Source of the DNA: Carallia brachiata
Lineage: Eukaryota; Streptophyta; Magnoliopsida; Malpighiales; Rhizophoraceae
Length of the DNA: 64,000 nt
NCBI GenBank assembly: GCA_021464245.1
Contig: JADCRB010000013.1
Span: 7,422,945-7,486,944 of the forward strand
Direction of reading: 5' to 3'
Part shown: positions 1,864 to 63,949 of the stretch, in pieces
Layout: every line of letters starts with the position of its first letter
Position numbering within the stretch: position 1 is the first letter of the stretch
The notes under the pieces: generated by a model
The model's input: the letters and a program-made list of their open reading frames with translations, nothing else
What the model was told of the DNA's origin: nothing
Database searches by the model: none
Program-made: the position numbers and the translations under genes

Positions 1864-1879
1864 TGTAAACTAATATAAT

Positions 1880-1931
<52 letters not shown>

Positions 1932-2553
1932 GGTGGCAGCCGCCAACCTTGAAGGTTGGCAGCTGCCAACCTAATTAATGCCACCAACCATTGGTTGGTG
2001 GCAGGCAGGCATGGGGGAGGCCTATAAATGGCCTCCCCCCAATTAAAAAAGAAGCAGAGAAGAAGAAAAAGAAGAAAAAAAGAAAAAGGGCAGCGAAGCG
2101 CAGGCAAAAAAAAAAAAAAAAGAAAAAAAGAAAAAAAAAAAAAAAAGAAGAGATAGTAAAAAAAAAAAAAATCGAAATATTACAAATCCGGCTGGGATTA
2201 AGTCCATACGGCCCTCAGCAAAATCCAGGCAACTCATCCGAGAACAAGTCCATTCGACCCTCGGTGAAATTAAGTCAGATCAGCTCAATCGAGTCTCTAC
2301 GGTTCCTAAACGTAGTCAAAACATCCAAATCAGACACAGTTTCAGTCTATCCAGTTCAAGAAAAAGCGGTGGAAATTATTTCTGTCCAGATCAAGCTCGT
2401 GCAGCCCTTGACGGAGTCAAAAAAGGAACACTAATCGGAGGATCTACGGAGATCGACCCCACGTAAATTTTCTTTTACTTTACAATTTTTATTTGTAATT
2501 TATTTTTGTATTTTCGAGTTTAATTGTTTTAGGCTCGAAATTTACGCTTTACA
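1864..2553 (+). repeat. 5' LTR (690 bp)
   Basis: Begins TGTAAAC and ends TTTACA, with the start and end sequences repeated in the 3' LTR. It contains an A-run plus (TA)n microsatellite, a cluster of short palindromes (1942-2001), a TATA-like TATAAAT at 2023-2029, long A/AG-rich runs (2046-2170) and a roughly 390-bp unique part (from about 2172) that matches the 3' copy with no base substitution I could find and two 1-bp indels. It is 52 bp longer than the 3' LTR because of microsatellite length and a 23-bp segment between two GCCAACCT copies that the 3' LTR lacks. Confidence 0.93.
2011..2040 (+). promoter_or_regulatory. Candidate LTR core promoter (TATAAAT inside a palindrome)
   Basis: TATAAAT (2023-2029) sits in the loop of an inverted repeat GGGGGAGGCC ... 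GGCCTCCCCC. The same arrangement occurs in the 3' LTR around 11405-11411. A TATA box in the U3 part is expected for a gypsy LTR; no transcript data are available to prove use. Confidence 0.5.
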
Positions 2554-2559
2554 AATTTT

Positions 2560-2577
2560 TGGCACGCTCGGTGGGAC
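2560..2577 (+). other. Putative primer-binding site
   Basis: TGGCACGCTCGGTGGGAC starts six bases after the end of the 5' LTR and begins with TGG, the complement of a tRNA CCA end, as expected for minus-strand priming. I could not assign the primer tRNA with confidence. Confidence 0.6.
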
Positions 2578-2640
2578 ATCTTCACCTCCCATCTCTTGTT
2601 CCTAAAAAAAAAAAAGAGGTAAAAGGGGAGCCGAGAGAAA

Positions 2641-2742
2641 AGTAAAAAAAAAAAAAGTAAAAAAAAAAAGTAAAAAAAGTAAAAGTAAAAGTAAAAAGTA
2701 AAAGTAAAAGTAAAAAAAAAAAAAGTAAAAAAAAAAAAAAAA
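2641..2742 (+). repeat. GTAAA-rich simple repeat in the retrotransposon leader
   Basis: Irregular tandem GTAAA(n) units fill the leader between the primer site and the gag start. They are low complexity and carry no conserved coding signal. Confidence 0.85.
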
Positions 2743-2763
2743 AATTTTACAGGTGTTCAACAA

Positions 2764-4559
2764 ATGGCACCGAAAAGGAGTACAACTGCTGCCACAAAAA
2801 AGAAGGCAACGGCTCCATTGCCTGCATCAACTACCCTACCTGGGTACGCAGGTCCAGAAACCCGGGGACGGACACAATTTCTTGCCGTCCAAACCCGACA
2901 AAATGTCGAAATGGAGAGTCCACAGCTTGCACAACAGGATCTCTCCCCTGACTCTCTTGCCGCATGGAGGAGTCGATCACCCACCCCGATCGAAATCGGG
3001 GGCAACACGACGAAACCTGCTCAACAAAATCCACCCACAGAAGAATCAGAAGAGTTTTCTCCCCCTCTTTCCCGGAGCCTCATCTGTTGCCGTCATGATG
3101 ACCAACACAACCAGCACAGAGGAAAGGATTTCAGAATTGGAGAACAAAATTTTGCAGCTGATCAGAGTCGTGGAGGAAAAAGATCAACAGATCGCAGCTC
3201 TCAAAGGAAAAGCCCCGATCCAAGTTGATCCCGAAATCCGCGAGGAGCAACCATATCCACCCGGTTTCACTCCAGAAGCCACACCGCGACGTCTTCCCTG
3301 CAGAAAAGCGACCAGGTAGTTCTACACAGCTGCCACCCTCAAATTCTGTAGCTTCGCTATCTGTTCAACAATTGCAGGAAATGATAGCCAATACGATCCG
3401 ACTGCAACAAGCTACATCCTTCCAAGGATCACAGATGTACGTCAAACCGTACACCAGACGGATCGAAAGTCTCAACATGCCCTTGGGCTACCAGCCGCCC
3501 AAATTTCAACAATTCGACGGACGAGGCGATCCCAAACAGCACATCGCCCACTTCGTTGAAACCTGCAACAACGCAGGGACTTACGGAGATCTCTTGGTGA
3601 AGCAGTTTGTTCGTTCACTCAGGGAGACCGCTTTCACCTGGTTCATAAATCTTGAACCAGAATCGATCGACAGTTGGGAACAGCTACAACGAGAGTTCCT
3701 CAACAGATTTTTCAGCACTCGAAGGACGGTAAGTATGATGGAGCTTACCAGCACCAAACAAAGGAAAGGAGAGCCCGTTGTCGAATACATCAACAGATGG
3801 CGTGCCCTCAGCTTGGACTGCAAAGATCGCCTGACGGAGACTTCTGCCGTAGAGATGTGCATCCAGGGAATGCATTGGGAGCTGTTATACATCCTGCAGG
3901 GTGTCAAACCCCGAACTTTCGAAGAACTGGCGACCCGCGCACATGATATGGAGATAAGCATCCAACTTCCGGAGGCACGGTTCCCATCCAGTTGGACCAG
4001 CAAGGGGGCAGAAGGGAGATTAAGAAACCCAACAGCTCCGGAAAAGGAAAGAAGTGATGACTGTTGAAGCCGCACCAGTAAAAGTGGGCGCCAAAGCTAA
4101 GGTAAATCCTCCGACCCAAATAACTCAGCCAAAACAACAGGAAAGGCGGAAGGTGACATTGCGAGAGCTGGAGCAGAAGCAGTATCCATTCCCCGACTCA
4201 GACGTCCCCGACATTCTTGAACAACTCTTGGAGGCGAAGCTGATCGAACTCCCAGAGTGCAAGCGGCCGAATGAAAAGGATCGAGTCAGCGATCCGAGAT
4301 TCTGCAAATATCACCGGATAGTAAGTCATCCAACCGAGAAGTGTTTCGTCCTGAAGGAGCTAATCATGAAGCTCAAAAGCCAGAATAAAATCATTCTGGA
4401 CCAGGAAGGCGTAACCTCAGCAAACCAAACCACCATCACTTCAAAACCATCAGAAGAAGTGACACACCGTAAGGAGGAGCCGCTCGACAACAAAAGTCGA
4501 CAACGGAGAAGGTATATGAAGCTCTCCAAACCCTTCTCGCTAACCCTCAGCTGTTTATA
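2764..4559 (+). CDS. gag: gag of the Tat-type retrotransposon (frameshifted)
   Basis: Nucleocapsid/capsid precursor that would package element RNA into cytoplasmic particles. The frame opens at the ATG at 2764 (MAPKRSTTA), just after the leader. Readable protein passes through successive frames: 2764 to about 3070, then about 3070-3290, then about 3290-4060, then 4054-4560. The third segment holds the Retrotrans_gag core, with the pattern LRETAFTWFINL, QREFLNRFF and EYINRWRAL that is typical of plant gypsy gag. The last segment has a zinc-knuckle-like CKYHRIVSHPTEKC (from about 4302), the form usual in Tat gag proteins. A coiled-coil-like stretch near 3120-3200 has the heptad-like ISELENKILQLI. 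Single-base shifts separate the segments, so no full-length product can be made from this copy as sequenced. Confidence 0.85.
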
Positions 4560-4562
4560 GCT

Positions 4563-5720
4563 TTGCAATCAACAGAAGTGTGGCAAAATCAAGTCAGCAA
4601 TACTCTCCAGACCTCAGCTGAATCACAGCCATCAAATGAGTCTAACTCAGCGGAGCAACAGGCGGACCAAAATCACGTCGGATGTTACTCTGCTATCTCA
4701 TTTTCAGATGAGGATCTCCTGCTGGGGTCCAAACCCCACAATCGGCCGCTGTATGTATCAGGCTATGTGAGAGAACAGAAGGTCCGACGTATTCTGATCG
4801 ACGATGGTTCAGCAGTCAATATTATCCCAAAATCCACCATAAAGGAGCTCGGCATCGGTGTTGATGAGTTATCAGACAGCCGTCTGATGATTCATGGCTT
4901 TAATCAAGGAGGACAGAAAGCAATTGGGATGATTCGCTTGGAGCTAACTATCGGTAATCTCACTTCTAGCACTCTATTTCACGTGATTGATGCACGTACC
5001 ACATATAAGATGTTGCTAGGACGACCGTGGATTCATGGAAATGGAGTTGTGCTCTCAAGCCTGCATCAGTGTTTCAAGTACTACAATGGTGGCGTTCAAA
5101 AGGTCAATGCTGACTTAAAGCCGTTCGATGATGCTGAATCACATTTGGCGGATGCAGTCTTCTACACTGACACAGACAATCCGGAGATCATTCCGTCAAA
5201 AGCTACTTGGACTGGGGGCATCCACAAAAAGGGAAAAGCTGTCGAAGAACCTGCCAATGCCCAACCCCAGGCTCCAACAAATGAAAAGCTGCCACAGCCT
5301 GCTGAACTTCGTCCGAAGGATGTTGCATCTTCAAGCTCCACTCCAGTCCTACGCTATGTGCCGAAGTCACGACGCTCAGAAGGTCAACCCCCTTTCTCTT
5401 ATTGTATTGATCTTAAACAGGAGCAAGGACATAGCCAACCCAAAACAAAGGAGCTGCACAACCTGAAGGAGACTTACACTCTGCCGATACCAAAGATTGA
5501 GCCGGTTTTGTCTTCAAAACCATTAAAAGGCTTCGTCAAACCACACACGGGGGCAGTCGAAGGCGGCTCACTTCCAGAAAGAAGAACACATGAAGGATTT
5601 GATCCTAATGCATACAAGCTTTTGGCAAAGGCGGCTATGACTTCTCAAACCCGAGCACAATGGGTACGCTGCCGTCCACACATGGCGCCGCTTCTCAATC
5701 ACAGTCCCGACCTGGCTTAG
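4563..5720 (+). CDS. pro: Aspartic protease region of the retrotransposon
   Basis: Continuous frame of about 385 codons that continues the gag-pol polyprotein. The catalytic motif ILIDDGSAVNI (about 4794-4826) is the retropepsin active site in its plant gypsy form (D[DS]G[SA]), followed downstream by the conserved hydrophobic MLLGRPWIH. The protease would cleave the polyprotein inside the particle. The first codon shown is not a real start: the sequence joins gag by a 1-bp shift near 4545-4560. The C-terminal third is a low-conservation linker towards RT, with further shifts near 5660 and about 5860. Confidence 0.85.
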   Translation: MQSTEVWQNQVSNTLQTSAESQPSNESNSAEQQADQNHVGCYSAISFSDEDLLLGSKPHNRPLYVSGYVREQKVRRILIDDGSAVNIIPKSTIKELGIGVDELSDSRLMIHGFNQGGQKAIGMIRLELTIGNLTSSTLFHVIDARTTYKMLLGRPWIHGNGVVLSSLHQCFKYYNGGVQKVNADLKPFDDAESHLADAVFYTDTDNPEIIPSKATWTGGIHKKGKAVEEPANAQPQAPTNEKLPQPAELRPKDVASSSSTPVLRYVPKSRRSEGQPPFSYCIDLKQEQGHSQPKTKELHNLKETYTLPIPKIEPVLSSKPLKGFVKPHTGAVEGGSLPERRTHEGFDPNAYKLLAKAAMTSQTRAQWVRCRPHMAPLLNHSPDLA

Positions 5721-5907
5721 GCTATCAGGAGAAGTCACCTGTGCGGATCACGCTAAAGAGCCGAAGCCGAGCAGCTGATGCACGTGCCATCACACCACCA
5801 CCAAACAAGACAGGCTTATCCAGTCAAACAAAGAAGGTGAAGTCAGAGGTTCTGCATTTCATGTCACAATTAGCGAGGAGGCTGATTCCGACTCATCAGA
5901 TGGTGAA

Positions 5908-6906
5908 GTGAAGGAGGCTCCCCCGGAACTTGAAGATGGTGGCCAAGCAACTGTTGATGAACTCAAGGAGGTCAATCTTGGCTCTCCGGAAGATCCTCGA
6001 CCTACATTTGTAAGTGCTTTACTTACTGCAGAAGAAGAGCAAGAATATGTTCAGGTATTAAGTCAATACAGGGACGTGTTCGCATGGAGTTACAAAGAAA
6101 TGCCTGGACTTGACCCAAAAATTGCGGTGCATCGTCTAGCAGTAAAGAAGGGTGTCCGTTCTGTCAAGCAGCCACAACGACGGTTCCGCCCGGAACTCAT
6201 TCCACAAATCGAGGAGGAGGTGAACAAGCTGATCAATGCCGGCTTCATCCGAGAGGTCACCTACCCAACGTGGATTGCCAACATTGTCCCAGTAAGAAAG
6301 AAGAATGGACAGTTGAGGGTATGTGTTGATTTTCGAGATCTTAACAAGGCCTGCCCGAAAGATGACTTTCCGTTGCCCATAACGGAGATCACAGTCGATG
6401 CAACAACGGGTCACGAAGCATTGTCTTTCATGGATGGTTCTTCAGGCTATAACCAAATCAGAATGGCACCAGAAGACGAGGAGTTGACAGCATTCCGCAC
6501 CCCAAAAGGTATATACTGCTACAAAGTTATGCCGTTTGGATTGAAAAATGCTGGCGCCACTTATCAACGTGCTATGCAAAAAATTTTTGATGACATGCTG
6601 CACAAGATTGTAGAATGTTATGTTGATGACTTAGTTGTAAAGACTAAGAAGCGCAAAGACCACCTCGAGGATCTCAAGACAGTGTTCGAAAGACTTCGGA
6701 GGCATCAGCTCAAAATGAACCCTCTCAAGTGCGCATTCGGTGTCACATCAGGAAAGTTTCTTGGGTTCGTGGTGCGCCATCGTGGAATCGAAGTTGATCA
6801 GTCAAAGGTTGAGGCAATTCAAAAGATGCCTGAACCTAAAAACCTGCACGAGCTGCGAAGTCTACAAGGAAAGCTGCCTACATTCGCCGTTTCATCTCCA
6901 ATTTAG
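5908..6906 (+). CDS. pol (RT): Reverse transcriptase domain of the retrotransposon
   Basis: RNA-dependent DNA polymerase that copies element RNA into cDNA. All landmark motifs are in one frame: a VNKLINAGFIREV entry helix, CVDFRDLNKACPKDDFPLP, FMDGSSGYNQI, the VMPFGLKNAGATYQ block and the catalytic YVDD (about 6619-6630), then FLGFVV. The YVDD aspartates are intact. The frame then breaks near 6885 through a small indel. The start at 5908 is only the first ATG in frame; the protein really continues from the protease part. The family is Ty3/gypsy beyond doubt, and the order with integrase downstream agrees. Confidence 0.93.
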   Translation: MKEAPPELEDGGQATVDELKEVNLGSPEDPRPTFVSALLTAEEEQEYVQVLSQYRDVFAWSYKEMPGLDPKIAVHRLAVKKGVRSVKQPQRRFRPELIPQIEEEVNKLINAGFIREVTYPTWIANIVPVRKKNGQLRVCVDFRDLNKACPKDDFPLPITEITVDATTGHEALSFMDGSSGYNQIRMAPEDEELTAFRTPKGIYCYKVMPFGLKNAGATYQRAMQKIFDDMLHKIVECYVDDLVVKTKKRKDHLEDLKTVFERLRRHQLKMNPLKCAFGVTSGKFLGFVVRHRGIEVDQSKVEAIQKMPEPKNLHELRSLQGKLPTFAVSSPI

Positions 6907-7890
6907 CTGGGAGATGTCAACCTTTCCATCGGTTGATGAAGAAGGATGTCAACTTCGAGTGGGACGAAGCTTGCAGCAAAGCCTTTGAAGCATAAAGAAG
7001 TACTTTCCAATCCACCGGTCCTAGGGCTCCAATTCAAGGAAAGTCGTTGATTCTCTACATTGCAGCAGGAAAGATCTTTGGGAGCCTTGCTTGCACAGGA
7101 AAATGAGCAGGGAAAGGAAGTTGCCTGTACTACTTGAGCAGAACACTAAATGGTCCGGAGCTGAGTTATTCGCCCATTGAAAAGACATGTCTAGCACTGT
7201 TCTTTGCCATTGACAAGCTGAGGCACTACATGCAAGCTCACACGGTACGTCTCATTGCCAGAGCTGATCCTGTCAAATATATCTTATCCAGACCAATCTT
7301 GTCAGGACGACTTGCCAAGTGGGCAGTAATCCTACAAAGCTACGACATTGTCTACGTGCCTCAAAAAGCAGTCAAAGGACAAGCTCTAGCAGACTTCCTT
7401 GCAGATCACCCTGTTCCGTCAGATTGGGAGTTCACAGATGATCTTCCAGATGAAGAGGTCTTTTACATTGAGACACTACCACCATGGACGATGTTCTTTG
7501 ATGGTGCAGCAAGGCGTGATGGTGCTGGTGCCGGCATAGTGTTTGTCACTCCTCAACGACAAATACTACCATATGCTATCATTCTCGGTGAGTTATGTTC
7601 AAATAATGTTGCTGAATACCAGGCTTTGATCATTGGTCTTCAAATGGCTGTCGATATGAAGATTCCAACTATAGAAGTCCATGGAATTCCCAGCTCGTCA
7701 TCAACCAACTTACAGGATTGTATGACGTGAAGAAAGAGGACCTTGCGCCTTACCATCAACGTGCTCGACAGCTAATGGATGAATTTGAAAGCATCACCTT
7801 GGAGCATGTGCCTCGACGAGAAAACACTCAGGCAGACGCGTTGGCTAACCTGGCCACTTCTCTTGCAAAGTCAGAAATCCAGGCTACAGT
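6907..7890 (+). CDS. pol (RNase H): RT-associated RNase H plus second (aRNH-type) RNase H, frameshifted
   Basis: Removes the RNA strand of the RNA/DNA hybrid. The first domain is recognisable from its connection part through SYSPIEKTCLALFFAI (7160s) to the QALADFLADHP segment (about 7380-7410). It is followed by a second RNase H beginning FFDGAARRDGAGAGI (about 7495), with NNVAEYQALI (about 7605) and a terminal TQADALANLA (about 7830). Two tandem RNase H domains are known from Tat-lineage gypsy elements. The segment 6907-7130 is scrambled by several 1-bp shifts, and another shift near 7685 removes the third catalytic aspartate from the main frame. The remaining catalytic positions can be read across the frames. 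Confidence 0.82.
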
Positions 7891-7939
7891 TGTTGCCGTA
7901 TGTCAGAAATGGATAGTGCCACAAAGGATGATGAAGAAA

Positions 7940-9225
7940 CTACAGCAGCCAACGCTGTATCTGTACGTCTCGCGGAGGACGAGGATTGGCGCCAACCAAT
8001 CATTGACTACTACAGCACGGGAAGCTGCCCGAAGATCGTCGTCATAAGACAGAAATTCAACGACGAGCTCCCCGCTTCATATATCTCAAGGATGCTCTGT
8101 ATCGAAGGTCTTTTGATGGAGTTTCTTCGCTGCCTAGCAATGAAGAGGCAAAACAGGCTCTCACTGAAGCACATTCTGGTGTTTGTGGCGGACATCAATC
8201 GGGCCTAAGTTGCACTTCCAACTCAGAAGGATGGGATACTACTGGCCAACCATGGTACGTGATTCAATTGAGTTTGCTAAAACTTGTCAAGCTTGTCAAT
8301 TTCATGCGAATTACATACATCAACCACCGGAGCCACTGCATCCAACTGTCTCATCCTGGCCCTTTGAAGCTTGGGGTCTCGACTTAGTGGGGCCCTTGCC
8401 AAAGTCATCCCTGGGTCACCTGTACATCCTCGCAGCAACCGACTACTTCTCAAAATGGGCTGAAGCCATTCCACTTAGAGAGGTAAAGAAGGAGCATGTT
8501 GCCAATTTCATCCGGACTCAGCTGATCTATCGCTATGGAGTCCCTCGATTCATCATCACTGATAATGGTAAGCAGTTCTACAACAGCTTAATCGACAAGC
8601 TCTGCGAGAAGTTCAAGTTCAAGCAGTACAAGTCATCCATGTACAATGCCCCAGCAAATGGCTTGGCCGAAGCATTCAACAAGACCTTATGCAACCTGTT
8701 GCGGAAGGTAGTCTCTAAATCCAAAAGAGATTGGCATGACAGAATTCCGGAGGCATTATGGGCGTATCGTACAACTTACCGGACTCCAACACAGGCGACG
8801 CCATACTCACTTGTCTACGGTGTCGAAGCAATACTGCCGTTGGAAACACAGATTCCATCCCTGCGCATGGCTGTTCTGGAAGGACTCACACAGGAGGAGA
8901 ATGCTCGCCTACGTCTGGATGAGTTAGAAGCTCTCGATGAAAGGAGGCTCGAAGCACAACAGCAACTTGAGTGCTACCAAGCCCGGCTCACCAACACGTT
9001 CAACCGCAGGGTCCGCCCTCGATCTTTTCAAGTTGGAGACCTTGTTCTTGCAGTGCGACGGCCCATCAACATGAAGCATCGGCCTGGTGACAAGCTTACT
9101 TCCAAATGGGACGGGCCATACTTAGTGCAGGAGGCCTACACTCACAACGCTTACATGCTGTCAGACCAAGAAGGCGTCCGAATCGGCCCAATCATGGTAA
9201 ATTTCTGAAACAGTATTATGTGTAA
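7940..9225 (+). CDS. pol (INT): Integrase of the retrotransposon
   Basis: Inserts cDNA into the host genome. The N-terminal zinc-binding region (about 8170-8310, with the pattern H..CGGH and CQACQ) lies across two frames. The catalytic core is intact from 8183, with WGLDLVGPLP (first Asp), FIITDNGKQF (second Asp) and NGLAEAFNKTL (Glu), the DDE triad. The C-terminal part has the GPY-like WDGPYLV motif (about 9109-9130), so no chromodomain is present, in agreement with the Tat/Athila side of gypsy. Near the end a 1-bp shift moves the last residues to another frame. That other frame closes at 9223-9225. Confidence 0.88.
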
Positions 9226-9634: not shown

Positions 9635-10327
9635 TTGAGTCTGAAACTCAGCATCAGTCTCAACCGATCTTCACCACATACCAAGACCTTTGCTCCTCTG
9701 CCGCAAGAAAGATGGAACCAGTTGCAGAACCTCAAGACAAGGGAAGAAAGGTCACCTCGCACAAGGTGGCAACCGACCATGGCACAACTGCAAATTTTGG
9801 AGGAAGTCTTCTACAACGATGGAGGTATTGTCCCTAACTCTACACAGATTCTCCAACTTGTCTCACGACTTCGCCCGCTAGGGGCAGTCGAAGGAAAAAA
9901 TGTATATTTTTGGTTCCAGAATCGGAGACATAGGGAAACAGTGGCGCTGAGAGATGGTATTTCCAAAGCACAGCCTGTTGTTCCTATAGTAGATCTCACC
10001 AGTACAGCTTCACCCTCAAATGAAGCCGGCCCAAGTTCTACCACTGCAATGGTCTCTCCACGGTACGTTCATCAAAGCCGTAGCCTATGGGAGCATACAT
10101 ACTGGTCCTGGTGGTTTCACGGAGTCAGCCAAGGGTTCATCCCTCCTAGATACTTAAGTCTAGGAGGAATTTTTCTAGCACACAGGAGTCATTCCGGCGA
10201 AATTTTGCCTCTCTTTCCAGAATATTCCGGCAGCATCAACCAGCCGGAAAGCGACATCGACGCCAACATCATCGGCCCACCAGACGAGGTCGAGCTTGAC
10301 TTGGAGTTGCACCTCGGGCCCCGCTAG
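9635..10327 (+). CDS. WUSCHEL/WOX-type homeodomain protein encoded inside the retrotransposon
   Basis: Uninterrupted 230-residue frame between integrase and the 3' LTR, in sense with gag-pol. Residues about 41-104 form a homeodomain of the WOX kind: RTRWQPTMAQLQILEE for helix 1, an enlarged 65-residue-type loop, RLRPLGAVEGKNV before helix 3, and the recognition helix YFWFQNRRHRE with W, F, N and R of the DNA-contact positions present. The EGKNV plus WFQN pairing is diagnostic of WOX proteins. Residues 188-197 (GEILPLFPEY, 10196-10225) resemble the WUS-box (TLxLFP). The C-terminus (VELDLELHLG, 10289-10318) is an LxLxL EAR motif, like those that recruit TOPLESS co-repressors. The middle is Ser/Pro and Trp rich. 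ATG 9635 is the first in-frame start; later starts at 9782 or beyond would cut the homeodomain. Known family role: stem-cell and organ-patterning regulators. A role for the element is inference. It could alternatively be a decaying gene fragment, but the frame is open and all modules are kept. Confidence 0.85.
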   Translation: MSLKLSISLNRSSPHTKTFAPLPQERWNQLQNLKTREERSPRTRWQPTMAQLQILEEVFYNDGGIVPNSTQILQLVSRLRPLGAVEGKNVYFWFQNRRHRETVALRDGISKAQPVVPIVDLTSTASPSNEAGPSSTTAMVSPRYVHQSRSLWEHTYWSWWFHGVSQGFIPPRYLSLGGIFLAHRSHSGEILPLFPEYSGSINQPESDIDANIIGPPDEVELDLELHLGPR

Positions 10328-10633: not shown

Positions 10634-10936
10634 ATGGCTAGTCTCTGCACTTGTCTCAGGAAGTTCTTCGATCAAGAAGTTGGAGGCGCACGAGCTAAGA
10701 AAAGAAGGAGTAGTCTTCTTCGAGGGATCCCTAAAAGCCCTCGAAACTCAGTCTCCAACGCCATCGGTGTCATGGAGTTCCAACTACTCTCCTTAGTTCA
10801 CATCTACCACAGAGGGATGAGAAGCTGCAATTATCCTAATCTTTCTTTGGATGCAGCGACGTACAGGGAAGTTCCAACTACTCTCCTTACGTCGAAGCAG
10901 ACTTGGAAATCATCACTACAGTCAGTCTCTCTGTGA
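10634..10936 (+). CDS. Small unrecognised ORF in the extra region of the retrotransposon
   Basis: A 100-codon frame beginning MASLCTCLRKFFDQEVGG, after a 26-bp A-run (10531-10556) and a short spacer with TATATAT (10570s). The N-terminal third is Cys/Arg/Lys rich and contains AKKRRSS, a possible nuclear localisation signal; the rest is ordinary in composition. I recognise no family. A second frame (10851-11282) overlaps it and is Ser/Pro rich. Either could be chance, and the repeated phrase GTTCCAACTACTCTCCTTA at about 10778 and 10870 shows that part of the region arose by duplication. Confidence 0.3.
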   Translation: MASLCTCLRKFFDQEVGGARAKKRRSSLLRGIPKSPRNSVSNAIGVMEFQLLSLVHIYHRGMRSCNYPNLSLDAATYREVPTTLLTSKQTWKSSLQSVSL

Positions 10937-11280
10937 GCCGGTCTTGAAGTTCCAAGGTCCTGGGCCTTCCTCTTGGGGAGGTTCAAGTTCTTTGCCTACT
11001 GGATCATCCTCACCAGAGCTTGGAACTTCAAAGAATTTGCCAGCCTTTGCCAGCCATGGAAGCTCAAACGCACCTGGAGCCAAGACTTCAATTTCTATAT
11101 TGGCTGGGCTGCTAACTTCTTCAAGATCATATCGGTTTCCTATTGCGATCCAACAACAGCGGAGATGGTCAAAGATAGAAGACTCCAAGATTCAATGTTC
11201 ATCAGGACTTTCCAAATTTCAAACTGGACTTCAAGACTCGGTTCGAATTATCTCTGTAAAAATTTTTCTTACCGACCCTT

Positions 11281-11292
11281 GAAGTGGGGGCA
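11281..11292 (+). other. Polypurine tract
   Basis: GAAGTGGGGGCA lies two bases before the 3' LTR and matches the usual plus-strand priming site of plant gypsy elements. Confidence 0.85.
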
Positions 11293-11294
11293 TT

Positions 11295-11478
11295 TGTAAA
11301 CTAATAATAAAAAAAAAAAAATATATATAAATGGTTGGCAGCCGCCAACCTAATTAATGCCACCAACCATTTGGTTGGTGGCAGGCAGGCAGCTGGGGGA
11401 GGCCTATAAATGGCCTCCCCCAATTAAAAAAAGCAAGAGAAGAAAGAAAAAGAAGAAAAAAAGGGCAGCGAAGCGCAG

Positions 11479-11514
<36 letters not shown>

Positions 11515-11932
11515 AAAAAAAAGAGAGAGAGATAGTAAAAAAAAAAAATCGAAATATTACAAATCCGGCTGGGATTAAGTCTCATACGGCCCTCAGCAAA
11601 ATCCAGGCAACTCATCCGAGAACAAGTCCATTCGACCCTCGGTGAAATTAAGTCAGATCAGCTCAAATCGAGTCTCTACGGTTCCTAAACGTAGTCAAAA
11701 CATCCAAATCAGACACAGTTTCAGTCTATCCAGTTCAAGAAAAAGCGGTGGAAATTATTTCTGTCCAGATCAAGCTCGTGCAGCCCTTGACGGAGTCAAA
11801 AAAGGAACACTAATCGGAGGATCTACGGAGATCGACCCCACGTAAATTTTCTTTTACTTTACAATTTTTATTTGTAATTTATTTTTGTATTTTCGAGTTT
11901 AATTGTTTTAGGCTCGAAATTTACGCTTTACA
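11295..11932 (+). repeat. 3' LTR (638 bp)
   Basis: Second copy of the LTR, from TGTAAACTAATA to CGCTTTACA. It shares the TATAAAT palindrome (11405-11411) and the U5-like end with the 5' copy. It differs from it in homopolymer and microsatellite length, in a few 1-2 bp indels, and in lacking 23 bp next to the GCCAACCT palindromes. Host polyadenylation of the element would occur inside this copy; no certain signal was identified. Confidence 0.93.
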
Positions 11933-11937
11933 GGGTG
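11933..11937 (+). repeat. Right target-site duplication GGGTG
   Basis: Identical to 1859-1863; it closes the insertion. Confidence 0.93.
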
Positions 11938-19996: not shown

Positions 19997-22685
19997 ATGG
20001 GAACTGGTTGGAGAAGAGCCTTTTGCACAATCCCCAGTGACCCAGAAGCCACCGGAGTTACAGATAAACAGCAGCAGCAAACAAGCCCCAATGCTAGCCC
20101 GATCCCCAGAAGCTGTGGTAAGCTGGGGTTCCTTTCCATCGGAAGCAATCCCACCACCCCCGCCAAATGTCTCAATCTGCCGTCTCGAGCCCAAGCTTGC
20201 GTTGCCGGACCACTGCCAGTACAGTAGAACCTGTACCATCCACAACTGAAAGTCCTAACCTCCATTGCAAAACCACGCCCAAAGCAGCCAAAACTCCAAA
20301 ACTGAGTTCAAACCCATCCTCGCCTCGATCCCCTTTCAAGTTATCTCTCTTCAGGAATAGCTTCAAGTTAAGAGTAAGATTTCTTATCTTGTAGTAAGCA
20401 CCAAAGTTGCGATGCCCTATCCACTTTCACCTGTTCAAGTAACGTTCGAGTCTGGTAGTTTGTGTTGGGGAAATAAACGGGATAAACAGCAAAGAAAAAC
20501 AATAAAAATACATAAATTTTACGTGAAAACCCCCCCCCCCAACAGTTTTTTTTTGTTGTGGATTCATATTATGTCAGATTGAATAGATTCGGGTCATCAT
20601 CCTCTAACAATTTGCAATGGCGTTGAAGTTTGGGTTTAGTGTGACAGATGTTTTCTTTCAATTTCTTACTGTTTTTTCATTTTATTTTTACTTTGGTTGC
20701 AGAGTAGTTGTGGAATCTGCTTGAACAGCGTAAAGACTGGTCAAGGCACGGCAATATACACGGCAGAGTGTGCACACGCTTTTCACTTTCCTTGCATCGC
20801 TGCCCATGTTCGTAAGCACAACAGTCTCGTGTGCCCAGTCTGCAATTCTACCTGGAAAGACGTCCCTTTGCTGGCCGTACACAAGAATCTCCAGCCCGAA
20901 TTATCCCACTCAGAAAACGACGTCGTAGACAACGCCACCTCCCCAGCCACGCACTGTAACAACAACAACAAGAAGCCAGAGGTAGAAGAGAAAAAAGTGG
21001 TACTGTTAGAATCTTCACCGAGAGCCGTAAAGAAGCCCGAACCGCAACATGAACAGCCACCAACTCCAAAATCCTCCGATTCCAGATCCTACGACGACGA
21101 CGAGCCATTGCTGTCTCCAACAGTTGGAGGGAGTTTAATTGTTCCGATTCCAGAAGCCGACGAGAATGCCGACGAAGAAGATGGAGATGTCGAGGAATTT
21201 CCGGGATTCTTGGTAAATCCCATCCCTTCATCTCTAATCAAACCATATGAAGTGACATCCAATGGCAGTGATACACGGAATGTTCAGGTTAGACTATTGC
21301 CTGAAGCCGCCGTTGTATCCGTGAGTCGTGGCTACGAAACTTATGCGGTGGCGTTAAGAGTGAAAGCGCCACCGACTGCGCAACCGGCCCGCGGTGGGAA
21401 CAACGCGGTTCCCATTTTAGAGCCGTCCCGTCGAGCTCCTATCGATTTGGTGACGGTGCTTGATGTGAGTGGAAGCATGGCAGGCGCTAAGATGCAGATG
21501 CTTAAACGCGCCATGCGTTTGGTGATTTCTTCTCTCGGCTCGGCTGACCGACTGTCTATCGTGGCTTTCTCCTCGGCTCCCAAGAGGCTGCTGCCTTTGA
21601 GGAGGATGACGACTAGCGGTCGGGACGTGGCTCGGCGCATCATTGACCGGCTCGCATGCGGTCAAGGGACCAGCGTGGGAGATGCTCTAAGGAAAGCGAT
21701 TAAGGTGCTGGAAGACAGAAGGGAGCGAAATCCTGTGGCTACTATCATGTTACTATCCGACGGTCAGGATGATCGTGTACAGAACAATGTGGCGAATCAG
21801 CGAAACGGATCGAGCCACGTGTCTTCTGCTCGTTTCGCTCACATTGAAATTCCAGTCCATGCGTTTGGTTTCGGTCAAAGCGGCGGCTACAGCCACGAGC
21901 CGGCTGAGGACGCATTTGCTAAATGCGTGGGTGGGTTATTGAGCGTGGTCGTGCAAGATTTGAGAATCCAGCTCAATTTAGCCGCCGGCTCTGCTCCAGC
22001 CGACATTGCCGCCGTTTATTCATGCAATGCTCGACCTACGGTTCTCAGCTCCGGTTCGGTGCGGCTAGGCGATTTATACGCCGATGAAGCGAGGGAGCTG
22101 CTGGTTGAACTGCGAGTTCCGTCGGCGGCGGTTGGGTCCCACCACGCGCTGTCAGTTCGCTGTCTCTACAAGGACTCCGCCACACAAGAGGTTGTGTACG
22201 GCCGCGATCAGGCTCTATTGGTCCCGCGTCCCCACGCCGTCCGATCATCGGCTCCTAAAATCGAGCGGCTGAGAAATCTTTTCGTCGCCACGCGAGCTAT
22301 AGCCGAGGCTCGCAGACTAGTCGACCACGGCGATTTCACGAGCGCTCATCACCTGCTGGCGTCGTCTCGGGCTTTGATATTGCAGTCGAGATCGATGCCA
22401 CCGGCCGATGAGTACGTAAGAAGCCTGGAGACTGAACTGGCGGAGGTGCATTGGAGGAGGCAGCATCAGATGGAGCTGCAGCAACAGAAGCAGCAACAGA
22501 TCGTGATGATCCAGCGGCGGAGAGGGAGCGAGAGAGAGGCAATGGCAATGACCGACGAGGACGGGGAGCCGCTTACGCCGACATCAGCTTGGAGGGCGGC
22601 TGAGAAGCTGGCTAAGGTAGCCATGATGAAGAAGTCGTTGGATAGAGTCAGCCATTTGCACGGCTTGGAAAACGCTAGATTTTAA
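19997..22685 (+). CDS. RING-H2 and vWA domain E3 ubiquitin ligase, WAV3/EDA40 family (one-base lesion in exon 1)
   Basis: Two coding exons: 19997-20373 and 20703-22685, with a GT-AG intron in phase 0. The N-terminus MGTGWRRAFCTIPSD followed by PIPRSCGKLGF and SSPSLRCRT is the family signature. Exon 2 starts with a RING finger, CGICLNSVKTG ... CAHAFHFPC ... CPVCNSTW. A von Willebrand A domain follows, with an intact MIDAS motif DVSGS (about 21460-21475) and LLSDGQDD. The C-terminal helical part ends NARF. Known members in Arabidopsis (WAV3, WAVH, EDA40) are E3 ligases in root growth and gravitropism. Exon 1 changes frame near 20157-20161: a run of five C, where six would keep family similarity and make the exon a multiple of three. 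As written, translation ends at 20227. With the frame kept, the protein would be about 786 residues. Confidence 0.9.
20374..20702 (+). other. Intron of the RING/vWA gene
   Basis: Starts GTAAGA and ends TTGCAG. It contains an odd C-run (about 20530-20540) after ACGTGAAAA, and the words around it (GGGGAAATAAACGGGATAAAC to CAACAG) look like a short fragment of a dispersed repeat. Not proven. Confidence 0.75.
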
Positions 22686-27894: not shown

Positions 27895-30581
27895 TTACTT
27901 CTGGTTTTGTTTGGCTCGAAGCTTTTGTTCCAAAACTGCTACCTCTGTCTCAAGGCTGAACATTCTGTTGAGAGCATGCATATTCTCAAGAGTCTCACTT
28001 AGAGTTCGGCTGTCACTTCCATCGCATCTCAGGTGCTGCATTGGACCATGAAGAAGCTTATTAACTATGCCACGGCTGAGGTCATCCACAGCTCGCCTTG
28101 TCTTCTTTGAGATATCATCACCCATTTTTGACAGACATTTATCCAGTTCCGCAACTCTGATTCTCTCAGCATAAGCCCTCAATTTCTTGATGGTAGGAAC
28201 TGTCTCCAAGGAATCTCTCCAAGCTTCAAATTGTTTTGATTCTTCAGCAATAATAGCCTGAGCTTCCATCGCTTTTCTGAGACGATCTTCTTTATTAGCT
28301 GCCACAACCTCCTTAAGGTCATCAACATTGTAAACTCGCACATTATCAACGTCATTAACACATGAACCCACATTCCGTGGAACGGAGATATCAACAAATA
28401 ATCTCAAACCCCCAACTTCTGAACCAACTAACGGGAGATCCTTGACATGGTCTCTCAAGAATAATGGTGTCTCAGATGCTGTGCTCGTGAAAACAACATC
28501 AGCCTCAGCAGCACAAGTCATCATCTCTGTTAGGGGTTTATAAATAATCTCAACATCCTTCAGCTCCTCACTTATAGCTGCAACTTTCTCCTCACTTCTG
28601 TTCACAACAACCATCTTCGTGCATCCTTTTGCGCTAAGTGTTTAATCACAAGTTTCCCCATCTTGCCTGCTCCAATCACCAACATTCTGGCAGTAGCATG
28701 TGAAGATTCAGGAAGCTTCATCAGAGCCAGTTCAACAGCAGCAGAGCTTACTGAAACAGCTCCAGCAGCAATATTTGTCTCAGTTCTAACCCTCTTTCCA
28801 ACAGAGATTGCATGCTTAAACAGCCCACTAATGTTCCTTCCAAAGCCAACAACTCCTTGACCAACCTTGACAACTTGTTTAACCTGAGCAAGAATCTGGC
28901 CTTCTCCAAGAACAAGAGAGTCAAGACCTGCAGATACTTCAAAGAGATGTCTTGTCGCATCATTATTGTACAACAAAAACCGATGCTCACAAATTTCTGA
29001 AACAGGGATGCCACTTGTCTGCCATCAAGAGAAACCACCAGTTTATTAGCAAATCTAAAATTTTTAAACTCACATCAATTTGGTCAACCATAGAGGAAGC
29101 AAGTAAAAATCACATGCCATATATGTTTAAGCAAAAGCTACATGAGTAGAGACAAAGAACTGATTTCTTCTAGACAGCAATGATAAAATGACAAGTAAAA
29201 ATGATCACAAGCAACTGTTCAGATGCTTTTAGTTGCTGAAAAGTCTAAACATAGTAAACTAGGTATTATCCAATAAATAATAACCAATCAGTTGTCAAGG
29301 TTCTTGACCACACGAACTTTCTATGTCACAGACCGAACCAATTAAAAATGCCAAGGGAAAAGTCTCTTAAATTCCATAACAGGGCAAGTTTGAAAAAGAG
29401 AAAATACCTTTGACATCCATTCAGTGACTTCCTTTACCCCACGATGTTGAGACAGTGCCACAGCATATATTTCCATTCTGTTGCAGGTGCTAAGAACAGC
29501 AGCCTCTTCTATATGATTCAAACCACAAAGCTCCCCAATGGCTCGAGGCCATTCAGCTTCGGGAATGGCAAGTTTTTCACGCATTTCGACTGGTGCAGTA
29601 TGAACACTAAGGCCAATTACCACAATGCTGGCCCTCTCCTTCGTATATCCTGATAGAGATCAATAATGATAATATCAGCTAATCAACATAAGTGGCAGAT
29701 TGAGAAAACTTCATCTGTTGTTTGTCATGCAAATTATAATGACTAAAATATATAATAACCCTCGTGAGATGATGTTCCGAAGATTATTATTAGGCCGAAT
29801 AATCTAACACAAGTAGTCATTTATTTATTTTGATCAGGCAACTAATAATCGACCAGAGTCATGAACCCCAACATAAAGATGCTGTCCAAGTGTCAATTTT
29901 TCACATATGGTAAATGTCCATCGACAGATACAGATTTGAAATGTTAATGTCTAAACCAAAACTTTGTCTTGAGAATAATTCCATGTTTTTTGGTAAACCA
30001 TTCCAATCAACACAAAAATGCGTCGCATTACTGAACAAATGCAAATCAACAAGTTTCCTAAGAATAAAACCAATAAGAGATCTGAACTTTGAGTGCAAAC
30101 GATTCAACAATTGAGCAAACAACCCGACACTGAAACCCGGATTACACTTGAGAACAACAACAACTCAGTTGCAATGAATACTAATCAGAAAAGAAAAAAT
30201 CCAGGAAAACAAAATTCCAAAATTCTCAAGCTGAAAAGCAAACAAAAATATCCTAAATAGGGACTCACTATCAGCGGCGGAGGTCTTGAGCTGTTCAAGA
30301 GCGGACAAACTGGAAACCTTAGCCGGATCGATATTGGTGTCGCTCTCAACCCCAACATCCGTCGAAGCAGCAACCTCGCATCTAACCCCTCCTCTCTGCG
30401 TCCAATACCTCCTACGAAAGCTCCTGTTTGGCTTGCAGAACAAGCGCAATTGCACCAGCGGCAACCTTGCCGGAGACGAAACCGCCGCCGCCGACGCCAA
30501 CGAGGAAGACGCCGAATGCAACAAGAAAGTCTCCATTTTGGCACCGGCGAGGGCGGTGGCGAAACCGCTGGGAACAGCCAT
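27895..30581 (-). CDS. HEMA: Glutamyl-tRNA reductase, chloroplast (HEMA), one-base lesion in exon 3
   Basis: Reduces glutamyl-tRNA(Glu) to glutamate-1-semialdehyde with NADPH, the committed step of chlorophyll and haem synthesis in plastids. Minus-strand exons: 30581-30269, 29649-29408, 29018-27895, all with GT-AG introns. Exon 1 encodes a Ser/Ala-rich transit peptide and the start of the mature protein. Exon 2 has the catalytic cysteine in [11 protein letters not shown]. Exon 3 has [13 protein letters not shown], the NADP-binding [10 protein letters not shown] and the C-terminal dimerisation helices with [14 protein letters not shown]. The C-terminus ends RAKQNQK. In exon 3 the frame shifts at a run of four A (plus strand T, 28627-28630); one more base would make the exon a multiple of three and keep the family sequence. 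With the frame kept the length is about 559 residues, normal for plant HEMA. Known control is by light, haem and FLU; no control site was identified here. Confidence 0.95.
29019..29407 (-). other. HEMA intron 2
   Basis: On the minus strand it starts GTATTT after an AAG codon and ends GGCAG before ACAAGTGGC. No element seen inside. Confidence 0.85.
29650..30268 (-). other. HEMA intron 1
   Basis: On the minus strand it starts GTGAGT and ends ATCAG before GATATACGAAGG. It splits an arginine codon (phase 1). No other feature seen. Confidence 0.85.
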
Positions 30582-62113: not shown

Positions 62114-63949
62114 TTAAATGGGAAGAATAACATCCAGGTTCTTGTGAAGCAGCCAACCCCTGGGATAGATAAGCCCATGAGCATCTAAATGGAGGTGCCA
62201 GTTCAGTGTCCTAGAACAGCCAGGCGGCTCACCTTCCATTTGACTTTCATCTTCCACCAGTTGTTCTATGAATGTGGTCTCCTATAAAAAGTGTGAGGTC
62301 TGTTAACGCAATAAGCACTCAAAAAATCAAATCAATTGCATAGCAACTTTCAAGTAATATTAGGAACAAATGTCCAAAAAATGCAGAGTTTGGAATATTA
62401 CTTGGAATCCCTCCTTCACTGTGTCCAACTGTCGAATGGGTCCCGAAAAGGGACGTTTCCATCTCTTTGGTTCCCATAAGATAGTACTGTTGAACGCAAA
62501 ACCAGACATATCAACATGAAACCGATGGAGTCTTTTACTTTTCTCTTTTGTGTGCCATCCAATGACCTCACTTCCATTGCATACTGGACCTTCCAAAATT
62601 GCTTTATTTTTGCTTTGAGCGAGCATGGCAATGGGCCAAGTGCCGAAACGACTACAAAATAAGAACGACAACATAAAAAGGATAGAAAGGGGCACAAAGT
62701 GAAGAACCACAGGGATGGCATGCACACAATATTCAATGGAAAAAAGCAACAAACAGGCGGCTACTTCTTGAATCAATTCTGAGATGGCTAACAACCAATG
62801 CAAACGCAAAAGTAAAATCCATAACATACTTTCACTGATCCATAAAGTATTGGTATTGATCAATCCCAACATAAACCATCATCCTGGCAATAATCTGCCA
62901 TCCCGAAAGCTATATTCATAAACTCTCAAAAAAAGATATGTACATTCAGCAATTCCCATCATTTTCATGTTTCTATACTGAGAAATTGAAGACCAAGAAA
63001 CAAGAAATGTGGCAACAACAATTAAAAGCCTTTCGTATAAGATTCCAATAATTCCCACAAATAACAACGGAAGAAATATATTACTAGAGATTATCGCCAT
63101 CCTATCTCACAACAAATGGAGAAAACAGTAACCAAAAGCTTAGAACTACCTGATTGCTCTCAGTCTCTCGAACAGCTCGAGGGAATAAAAATTATGATCG
63201 TCGGCAAAGTACACGATTCCATCGAGCCTATGCTTCTCGATGTGCTCCAATGCCACATTCCTCTGGTGGACCCGTCGGTCCTTTATCTCGGTCGAATTCT
63301 TCAGGCACACCAAATGCCTGTACATCACGCCCGTTTTCCTCAGTATATCGGCCGTCTCCGTCGACGCCCCGTTCATTTCCACCACAATCCACAGCAACGG
63401 CTGCTGCACCAACCTCAGCACCTGCCCTAATCTATTCAAGAAATACGCTTGCAAAGCTCGATTATACGTCGGCGTAACCACGATCAACTGCTTTCTCGGT
63501 TCGTAATCGAATCTCGAAACGTAACTATCGACGCCGAAGCTCACTGTATTAACGGCAGAATCGTTATGCTTGAAAGTACGATTATCATTTTCGTCCAATT
63601 TGGCATTGAAGTGTGGCGGCTTGATCTCGAAGGATGAATCCTTATGCCGGATATCGGAATCCACTTGGCCAAACGGGAAAACGCCTAACAAGAACCCTAA
63701 GACAAAGAACGGCAAGCACCTGTAGAAAAATCTCCGAAATCCTTTGCGCTTCTGAGGAAACGCGGCGGCCAGGAAGCGCCGGAGAGAGGCGTCGGCGAAG
63801 CTGAGAAACGAGGACGAATAAGAAGAAGAAGAGGAGGAGGAGTATTTACCGGTGGTGGAGCAAAGCTTGTGAGACGGAGAGCCGACGGAGCCGTTGAGGT
63901 GTGAAGGGTCGTGATGCGCCGGCGAAAGCGTTCGACGAATAGAGGCCAT
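62114..63949 (-). CDS. IRX9H: GT43 family xylan synthesis protein, IRX9H/IRX9 type
   Basis: Golgi type II membrane protein of glycosyltransferase family 43 needed for elongation of the xylan backbone. Minus-strand exons: 63949-63150, 62651-62402, 62281-62114, all GT-AG and in frame, giving 405 residues. The N-terminus [10 protein letters not shown] is typical of IRX9H. A Ser-rich stretch is followed by one membrane segment around residues 73-95 ([20 protein letters not shown]). The GT43 domain starts with [20 protein letters not shown] and continues through LLWIVVE, then [14 protein letters not shown] at the metal-binding position, and [19 protein letters not shown] across the first intron. 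The C-terminal exon has GEPPGCSR and [16 protein letters not shown]. The acidic motif reads DDH where I expect DD(D/S), so its catalytic competence is open; IRX9-type members are thought to be partly structural. The gene converges on symplekin. Confidence 0.9.
62282..62401 (-). other. Intron 2 of the GT43 gene
   Basis: On the minus strand it runs from GTAATA after a CAA codon to TATAG before GAGACC. Short and featureless. Confidence 0.85.
62652..63149 (-). other. Intron 1 of the GT43 gene
   Basis: On the minus strand it starts GTAGTT and ends TTTTGTAG; it splits a serine codon (phase 2). No insertion seen. Confidence 0.85.

Follow-up and report, generated by a model that had tools for sequence, protein, structure and literature searches.

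The WUS-like gene and the element that carries it

A stretch of 64,000 nucleotides of the Carallia brachiata genome (contig JADCRB010000013.1, positions 7,422,945 to 7,486,944; hereafter the window) contains a Ty3/gypsy long terminal repeat (LTR) retrotransposon in which a gene resembling WUSCHEL (WUS), a developmental master regulator of the shoot stem cells of plants, lies behind the integrase. A reading made from the letters alone (the sequence-only reading) had described here a 230-codon frame at 9635-10327 with a WUS/WOX-type homeodomain inside a fully bounded element, and this description is confirmed: the frame is open, its product matches the Pfam Homeodomain (2.8e-9), and the WUSCHEL homeodomain structure 6ry3 aligns without gaps to residues 42-103 (1e-15). 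The frame runs in gag-pol sense behind the integrase of a Tat-type element, which is bounded by a pair of LTRs and the duplication GGGTG on both sides. In addition to the homeodomain hallmarks noted earlier, a WUS-box and an EAR motif lie in frame. The parts of the gene are:

9712..9757, + strand: ATG and first codons of the WUS-like gene; in the window copy they lie in a different frame from the homeodomain, in 40 of 70 copies fetched from the genome in the same frame
9758..9943, + strand: homeodomain of the WUS type (allele A) that retains the WUS base contacts R38, Q89, N90 and R94
10202..10219, + strand: WUS-box ILPLFP (TLPLFP in other alleles)
10295..10318, + strand: EAR-type repression motif LDLELHLG
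10325..10327, + strand: stop codon of the WUS-like gene

Position 9635 is a mere TTG following a stop, and the first in-frame ATG is residue 49, within the homeodomain. As the ATG at 9712, the start of most open copies, is out of frame with the homeodomain here, the N-terminus of the gene is probably disrupted in the window copy, which most likely is not an open copy, unless the frame difference is an assembly error. The earlier statement that the frame had stayed open thus holds for the absence of stops but not for the start codon.

The gene resembles WUS in spacing and motifs. The homeodomain spacing is 49, the same as in all 119 readable non-WOX2 database rows and unlike the 48 of all four WOX2 rows, in a comparison set limited to WUS-like proteins and WOX2. 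The extra residue specific to WUS is present, and STENOFOLIA aligns to the element homeodomain with a gap. A WUS-box occurs in 118 of 119 database matches and an EAR motif of the form LxLxL in 108.

The carrying element has the following parts:

1864..2553, + strand: 5' LTR, 690 nt, TGTAAAC...TTTACA, preceded by the target-site duplication GGGTG at 1859-1863
3225..4067, + strand: gag (Retrotrans_gag PF03732, 1.8e-15)
4563..5720, + strand: protease region (PF13650, 9e-4, a weak match under the curated cut-off)
5908..6906, + strand: reverse transcriptase (PF00078, 6.7e-35)
7134..7730, + strand: RNase H (PF17917), then a second RNase H-like domain (PF13456, residues 122-184), upstream of the integrase
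8183..9208, + strand: integrase (rve PF00665, 8.5e-11; H2C2 PF17921 slightly under the cut-off)
11277..11294, + strand: polypurine tract region (...TTGAAGTGGGGGCATT), immediately 5' of the 3' LTR, located by eye
11295..11932, + strand: 3' LTR, 638 nt, followed by the duplication GGGTG at 11933-11937

The gag, reverse transcriptase, RNase H and integrase genes all have the same orientation, upstream of the WUS-like frame. The features of a Ty3/gypsy Tat element are present, namely LTRs, a 5-bp target-site duplication and the order gag, reverse transcriptase, RNase H, integrase, and so is an extra RNase H between RNase H and integrase, for which PF13456 serves as a stand-in for the archaeal-type domain (aRH). 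In the consulted part of PMC6317226 such an additional RNase H is a mark of the angiosperm Tat groups Ogre and Retand. The two LTRs differ by gaps only, with no substitution, over their last 380 nt, and the remaining differences lie mostly in simple repeats further 5'; the insertion is young on account of these unsubstituted 380 nt. Judged by these features, the segment 1864-11932 is a young Ty3/gypsy Tat-type element. Although the LTRs are so alike, gag-pol (2554-9208) is split by several frame shifts, possibly through assembly indels or because defective copies spread in trans.

Copies across the genome

The search covered the 337.5-Mb assembly of 164 contigs. With the window frame as query 151 matches were found, of which 150 are listed (150 of 2908 first-look candidates were scored), so the gene occurs in at least 150 places; 131 of the 150 have no stop inside the match. 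A Turnera WUS protein as query gave 138 rows among the matches listed: the host's WUS genes at two loci, with identities of 80 and 74%, seven rows at 56-66% identity taken to be other WOX genes, and 129 rows at 37-47% which, by identity alone, are taken to be element copies. The union comes to at least 245 element-type places on 92 contigs.

Seventy copies (L001-L070) were fetched, the 30 best and 40 more divergent ones, a non-random set chosen by gene match that includes the window copy. An integrase of the same family lies upstream in 66 of them, ending 458-743 nt before the homeodomain, and a window-type LTR follows 666-1423 nt downstream in 47. Both-end LTRs were found in all six copies checked, with about 1% mismatch in three copies of allele A and 2-4% in three of allele B. 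The association was also approached from the integrase side, with 117 of 119 integrase rows (two on contig C32 were dropped) compared with the 245 gene places: a listed gene stands behind the integrase at 41 of the 117 places, and of ten places sampled from the 76 without one, nine also have a WUS-like gene. The frame is not the cargo of a single element, as the sequence-only reading had supposed. That reading would have been abandoned had other copies lacked the frame and its flanks shown a nested host fragment; the outcome instead favours a genuine gene of the element, and a nested insertion of a host fragment is excluded by copy number, position behind the integrase and divergence.

An open frame of 203-207 aa is found in the 40 copies mentioned above. 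It begins at the counterpart of the ATG at 9712, shares the frame of the homeodomain and runs through the EAR ending. Here "open" means a start resembling M-E/K-P and an ending LEL.L; 32 of the 40 start with MEPVAEPQDKGEERSPRTRWQPT. Without selection for openness, the WUS-box is readable in 68 and the EAR motif in 69 of the 70 copies. The 26 distinct open copies have the WUS-box as ILPLFP (16), TLPLFP (9) or TLSLFP (1).

Constraint on the gene

The sequence-only reading had proposed to measure the ratio of nonsynonymous to synonymous divergence (dN/dS) between copies, and among the alleles of the element dN is indeed below dS. A copy of allele A (L014) compared with seven copies of allele B gives dN/dS of 0.42-0.53 (Fisher p 0.0005-0.014); the 325 pairs of the 26 distinct open copies give a ratio of means of 0.43-0.66 across six dS bins; and with four further copies dN/dS is 0.33-0.64 in 26 pairs, p being <0.05 in 23, all these pairs being non-independent as they share copies, and the copies having been picked by gene match.

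Random mutation was also simulated to the same homeodomain divergence. Of 3000 runs, 0.4% left a frame of about 190 codons free of stops; replacements as conservative as those observed were reached in 0.3%, and the observed retention of residues common to WUS and WOX2 likewise in 0.3%, figures that make no distinction between constraint during the gene's time in the host and constraint since it joined the element. A homeodomain-like frame arisen by chance is ruled out by this simulation together with the Pfam and 6ry3 matches. Judged by the substitution patterns, constraint on the WUS-like gene is real but loose.

Modular alleles and U3 types

At least two divergent alleles of the homeodomain segment are found, and the backbones that carry them are nearly identical. 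In five A-B pairs (L014 with L067, L042, L070, L056 and L065) divergence is 0-2% in the integrase, 1-5% over nt 1-100 of the gene and again 1-5% over nt 500-600, but 18-22% over nt 100-300, where most of the homeodomain lies. A non-coding stretch 200-400 nt upstream is divergent as well (1-25%, partly repeats). Within the homeodomain block dS is 0.32-0.40 and dN/dS 0.50-0.61 in three A-B pairs, and the integrase has dS of 0.006-0.06 in six of seven pairs and 0.16 for L036. Three copies (L033, L034 and L061) resemble A/B mosaics by eye.

Such a contrast between a homeodomain block and its near-identical surroundings might be thought to reflect accelerated change of the arms-race kind. That would seem improbable, as silent change is raised in the same block, which argues for an exchange of old alleles rather than for pure positive selection; the upstream non-coding stretch is also raised, and mosaics are what recombination would leave behind. 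The two alleles thus point to module exchange.

Allele and U3 type are associated (Fisher 8e-7): U3-1 accompanies allele A in 32 of its 36 typed copies, and 15 of the 19 copies with allele B have U3-2 or U3-3, the 15 of the 70 copies with another or no U3 being excluded. This association may come from linkage and shared descent. Near-identical integrases precede several unrelated U3 types in the 3' flanks of L001-L070, some with palindromes or short repeats upstream of a CCTATAAAT box, so that promoters are swapped among members of a single family. At L088 (G000:C53:34080-35780), behind an integrase 89% identical, sits a third version of the gene that has diverged further, with three stops and nearer to allele A (73 versus 67%).

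Origin of the gene

WUS is a widespread gene of plant hosts, and WUS-like proteins are widespread among the database matches too (mainly named WUS; best 120 of 245). It is this distribution that indicates that the element took the gene from a host and not the reverse. We infer that the gene descends from a WUSCHEL-type transcript, the direction being from host to element. The two host WUS loci (L077 and L078) have three predicted coding blocks, with the homeodomain in the first and the WUS-box and EAR motif in the third; the frame of the element is continuous, as expected from passage through RNA. It could be a processed copy of a host transcript, though introns may possibly have been lost after capture.

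The sequence-only reading had the element capturing a host WOX gene, and the window insertion itself is young. A recent capture by one element is nevertheless very improbable given the number of places, at least 150 matched directly and at least 245 with those assigned by identity alone, and given that the gene has moved much too far from the WUS genes of the host itself for this: only 30 of 59 homeodomain residues are identical to them in allele A and 32 of 59 in allele B (51-54%). In a tree of 25 rows the four element proteins group as a single clade (100/100), whose branch is 3.5 changes per column long. Its joining to three WUS-like rows, from Ipomoea and one unnamed protein, is weakly supported (60/84) and carries a long-branch flag. 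A protein database search returned five matches from 239 candidates, none of them a close copy, and among viral contigs no relative of the WUS frame (10 pattern matches, none confirmed) or of the integrase was found.

Proposed function

We consider it quite likely that the WUS-like gene is an established, selected regulatory gene of the element. It is probably a long-established, loosely constrained accessory gene for a DNA-binding regulator, and probably for a repressor; its occurrence suggests that the element exploits a regulator of plant development to its own advantage. EAR and WUS-box motifs recruit TOPLESS, and a DNA-binding repressor would be the simplest function given that both are retained.

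In the proposed mechanism a protein of about 205 aa would enter the nucleus, bind sites of the TAAT/TGAA type through its retained contact residues, with an arginine at the position of WUS S36 tilting it towards TAAT, and recruit TOPLESS-type co-repressors through the EAR motif and WUS-box. In the consulted part of PMC7203112, R38, Q89, N90 and R94 are base contacts of WUS, the change S36R turned binding of a TAAT probe into the pattern of a typical homeodomain, and a triple change of T35, S36 and R94 moved specificity to TAAT. The contact residues are kept in 24 of the 26 distinct open copies and the arginine at the S36 position is found in all 26. The least certain step is that the protein would act in cells of the shoot meristem or embryo, in the lineage yielding gametes, where it would compete with or imitate host WUS and/or tune the LTR of the element, so that new insertions would be inherited.

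Several observations weigh against a selected function, besides the manner in which the copies behind the dN/dS values were picked. The window copy has its start codon out of frame, 30 of the 70 copies are not open, all nine gene-bearing loci from the integrase sample are non-intact, each with stops or breaks, and the definition of openness makes EAR counts among open copies partly circular. The integrase of the same pairs is far more constrained, with dN of 0-0.0013 in six of seven pairs and, in the seventh, 0.017 against a dS of 0.165. Distinct indels in the gene break the frame in 29 of 34 cases, similar to the flanks (177 of 235 and 111 of 135), although they are fewer; counted by occurrence, 44 of the 84 indels within the gene have a length divisible by three, compared with 141 of 547 upstream of it and 121 of 265 on the downstream side. 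Finally, the window LTR has no significant excess of TAAT (13 versus 7.6 expected, 0.06), and TGAA falls below expectation (3 versus 7.6).

Most of these are what one would expect if an old captured frame were simply copied along as a functionless passenger, its low dN/dS coming from few master copies or from allele exchange: its dN/dS is clearly above that of the integrase, decayed copies exist and frame-breaking indels are common. It would still seem rather unlikely, since the frame is stop-free at a divergence where random change seldom leaves it so, replacements are conservative and the residues shared by WUS and WOX2 are kept (host time and element time not being distinguished here), dN is below dS in B-B as well as A-B pairs, and the WUS-box and EAR motif remain readable in nearly every copy.

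As to what a selected regulator would bind, the absence of a significant site excess in the LTR, despite one tandem TAATTAATG in the window U3, makes us lean towards host targets, although binding to WUS-type sites of the host is given slightly less than an even chance. The LTR of the element itself is a more tentative candidate. Regulation of its own transcription through the LTR/U3, with the pairing of alleles and U3 types as a product of co-evolution, would accord with that pairing and with the tandem motif, but the frame lies about 1 kb from the 3' LTR, so that linkage alone can yield the association, the copies are related, of the 63 with a TATA match only 16 have TAATTAATG, and the motif excess is not significant; we hold self-regulation to be possible but doubtful. 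An internal TATA upstream of the start was considered and dropped, TATAAAAGACG being present in only 4 of 70 copies.

A bolder version of the regulatory reading, which we put forward with considerable reserve, is that the protein overrides or imitates host WUS in the shoot stem cells that yield gametes, including its reported part in excluding RNA viruses, with the DNA-binding domain exchanged between elements as an allelic module whose specificity fits the type of promoter in the LTR. The element family would then have made a master regulator of plant stem cells its own lasting gene, comparable with the trans-regulators of viruses or with viral oncogenes, which are host-derived. A transposon would gain from being active in stem cells that lead to gametes. 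An involvement of WUSCHEL in the exclusion of RNA viruses from stem cells is described in the consulted part of PMC10589665.

Other features of the window

Downstream of the WUS-like gene lies a second small sense open reading frame (ORF) of 100 aa (MASLCTCLRKFF..., 10634-10936), which had no match in a Pfam search. Its start is present in 58 of the 70 copies, 30 of which have the exact 100-aa end, and over this stretch L014 differs by 0-1% from L042 and by 6-13% from L067. Outside the element the window contains a host gene and exons of two further genes:

20697-22685: WAV3-type RING/VWA E3 ubiquitin ligase gene, 81% identical to Rhizophora mucronata, further matches being mostly Malpighiales relatives
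27895-28614, minus strand: glutamyl-tRNA reductase exon
63146-63949, minus strand: glycosyltransferase family 43 exon

Comparison with known systems

The gene shares with WUSCHEL the WUS-spaced homeodomain, WUS-box, EAR motif and contact residues (PMC7203112, in part). It differs in that only about half of the homeodomain residues are shared, in the arginine at the S36 position, the short middle, the continuous frame and its mobility. Transduction of host genes, as by maize Bs1, likewise places host-gene sequence in an LTR element in gag-pol sense; however, transduced genes have one or few copies in the consulted sections of PMC7264820, whereas the WUS-like gene is found in most sampled copies and is under some constraint.

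Accessory regulators of complex retroviruses such as HBZ of HTLV would be alike as nuclear regulators encoded by an element, but the proteins and lineage are others and the likeness is one of analogy only; HBZ has been brought up for plant aORFs in the part of PMC11963269 consulted. DUX4 is a homeodomain retrogene tied to retroelement promoters (PMC3836709, in part), but it is a host gene, whereas the WUS-like homeodomain is carried by the element itself.

The closest likeness is to the extra ORFs of Tat elements (eORF/aORF), such as that of Ogre with a plant mobile domain and the antisense Transposase_28 (TRP28) of Retand, RIRE2 and Grande, which are also extra genes between pol and the 3' LTR and, for TRP28, have been given a suggested DNA-binding regulatory role (PMC11963269, PMC6317226 and PMC7264820, each in part). 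In the same excerpts the Retand ORFs run antisense and most are said to be of unknown origin, whereas the WUS-like gene lies in gag-pol sense and has a clear WUSCHEL descent; in the window copy, six antisense frames gave no match to Transposase_28 (PF04195) up to E 0.1. Searches of the open-licence literature, including the main reviews of extra ORFs, turned up no LTR element with a WUS or homeobox ORF, nor does one appear in the consulted parts of PMC11963269, PMC7264820, PMC11728184, PMC6317226, PMC5501002 and PMC6482515. This lack of precedent may be due in part to the threshold of 250 codons given in the consulted part of PMC6317226, as the gene has about 205 codons.

We place the WUS-like gene with the extra ORFs of Tat elements. 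These have resisted explanation in plants as most resemble nothing known, and what such ORFs do becomes directly testable here because this one has a known structure, known DNA contacts and known co-repressor motifs. Should its targets be those of the host, a transposon would be able to bring with it a permanent regulator of development, directed at the stem cells that yield gametes.
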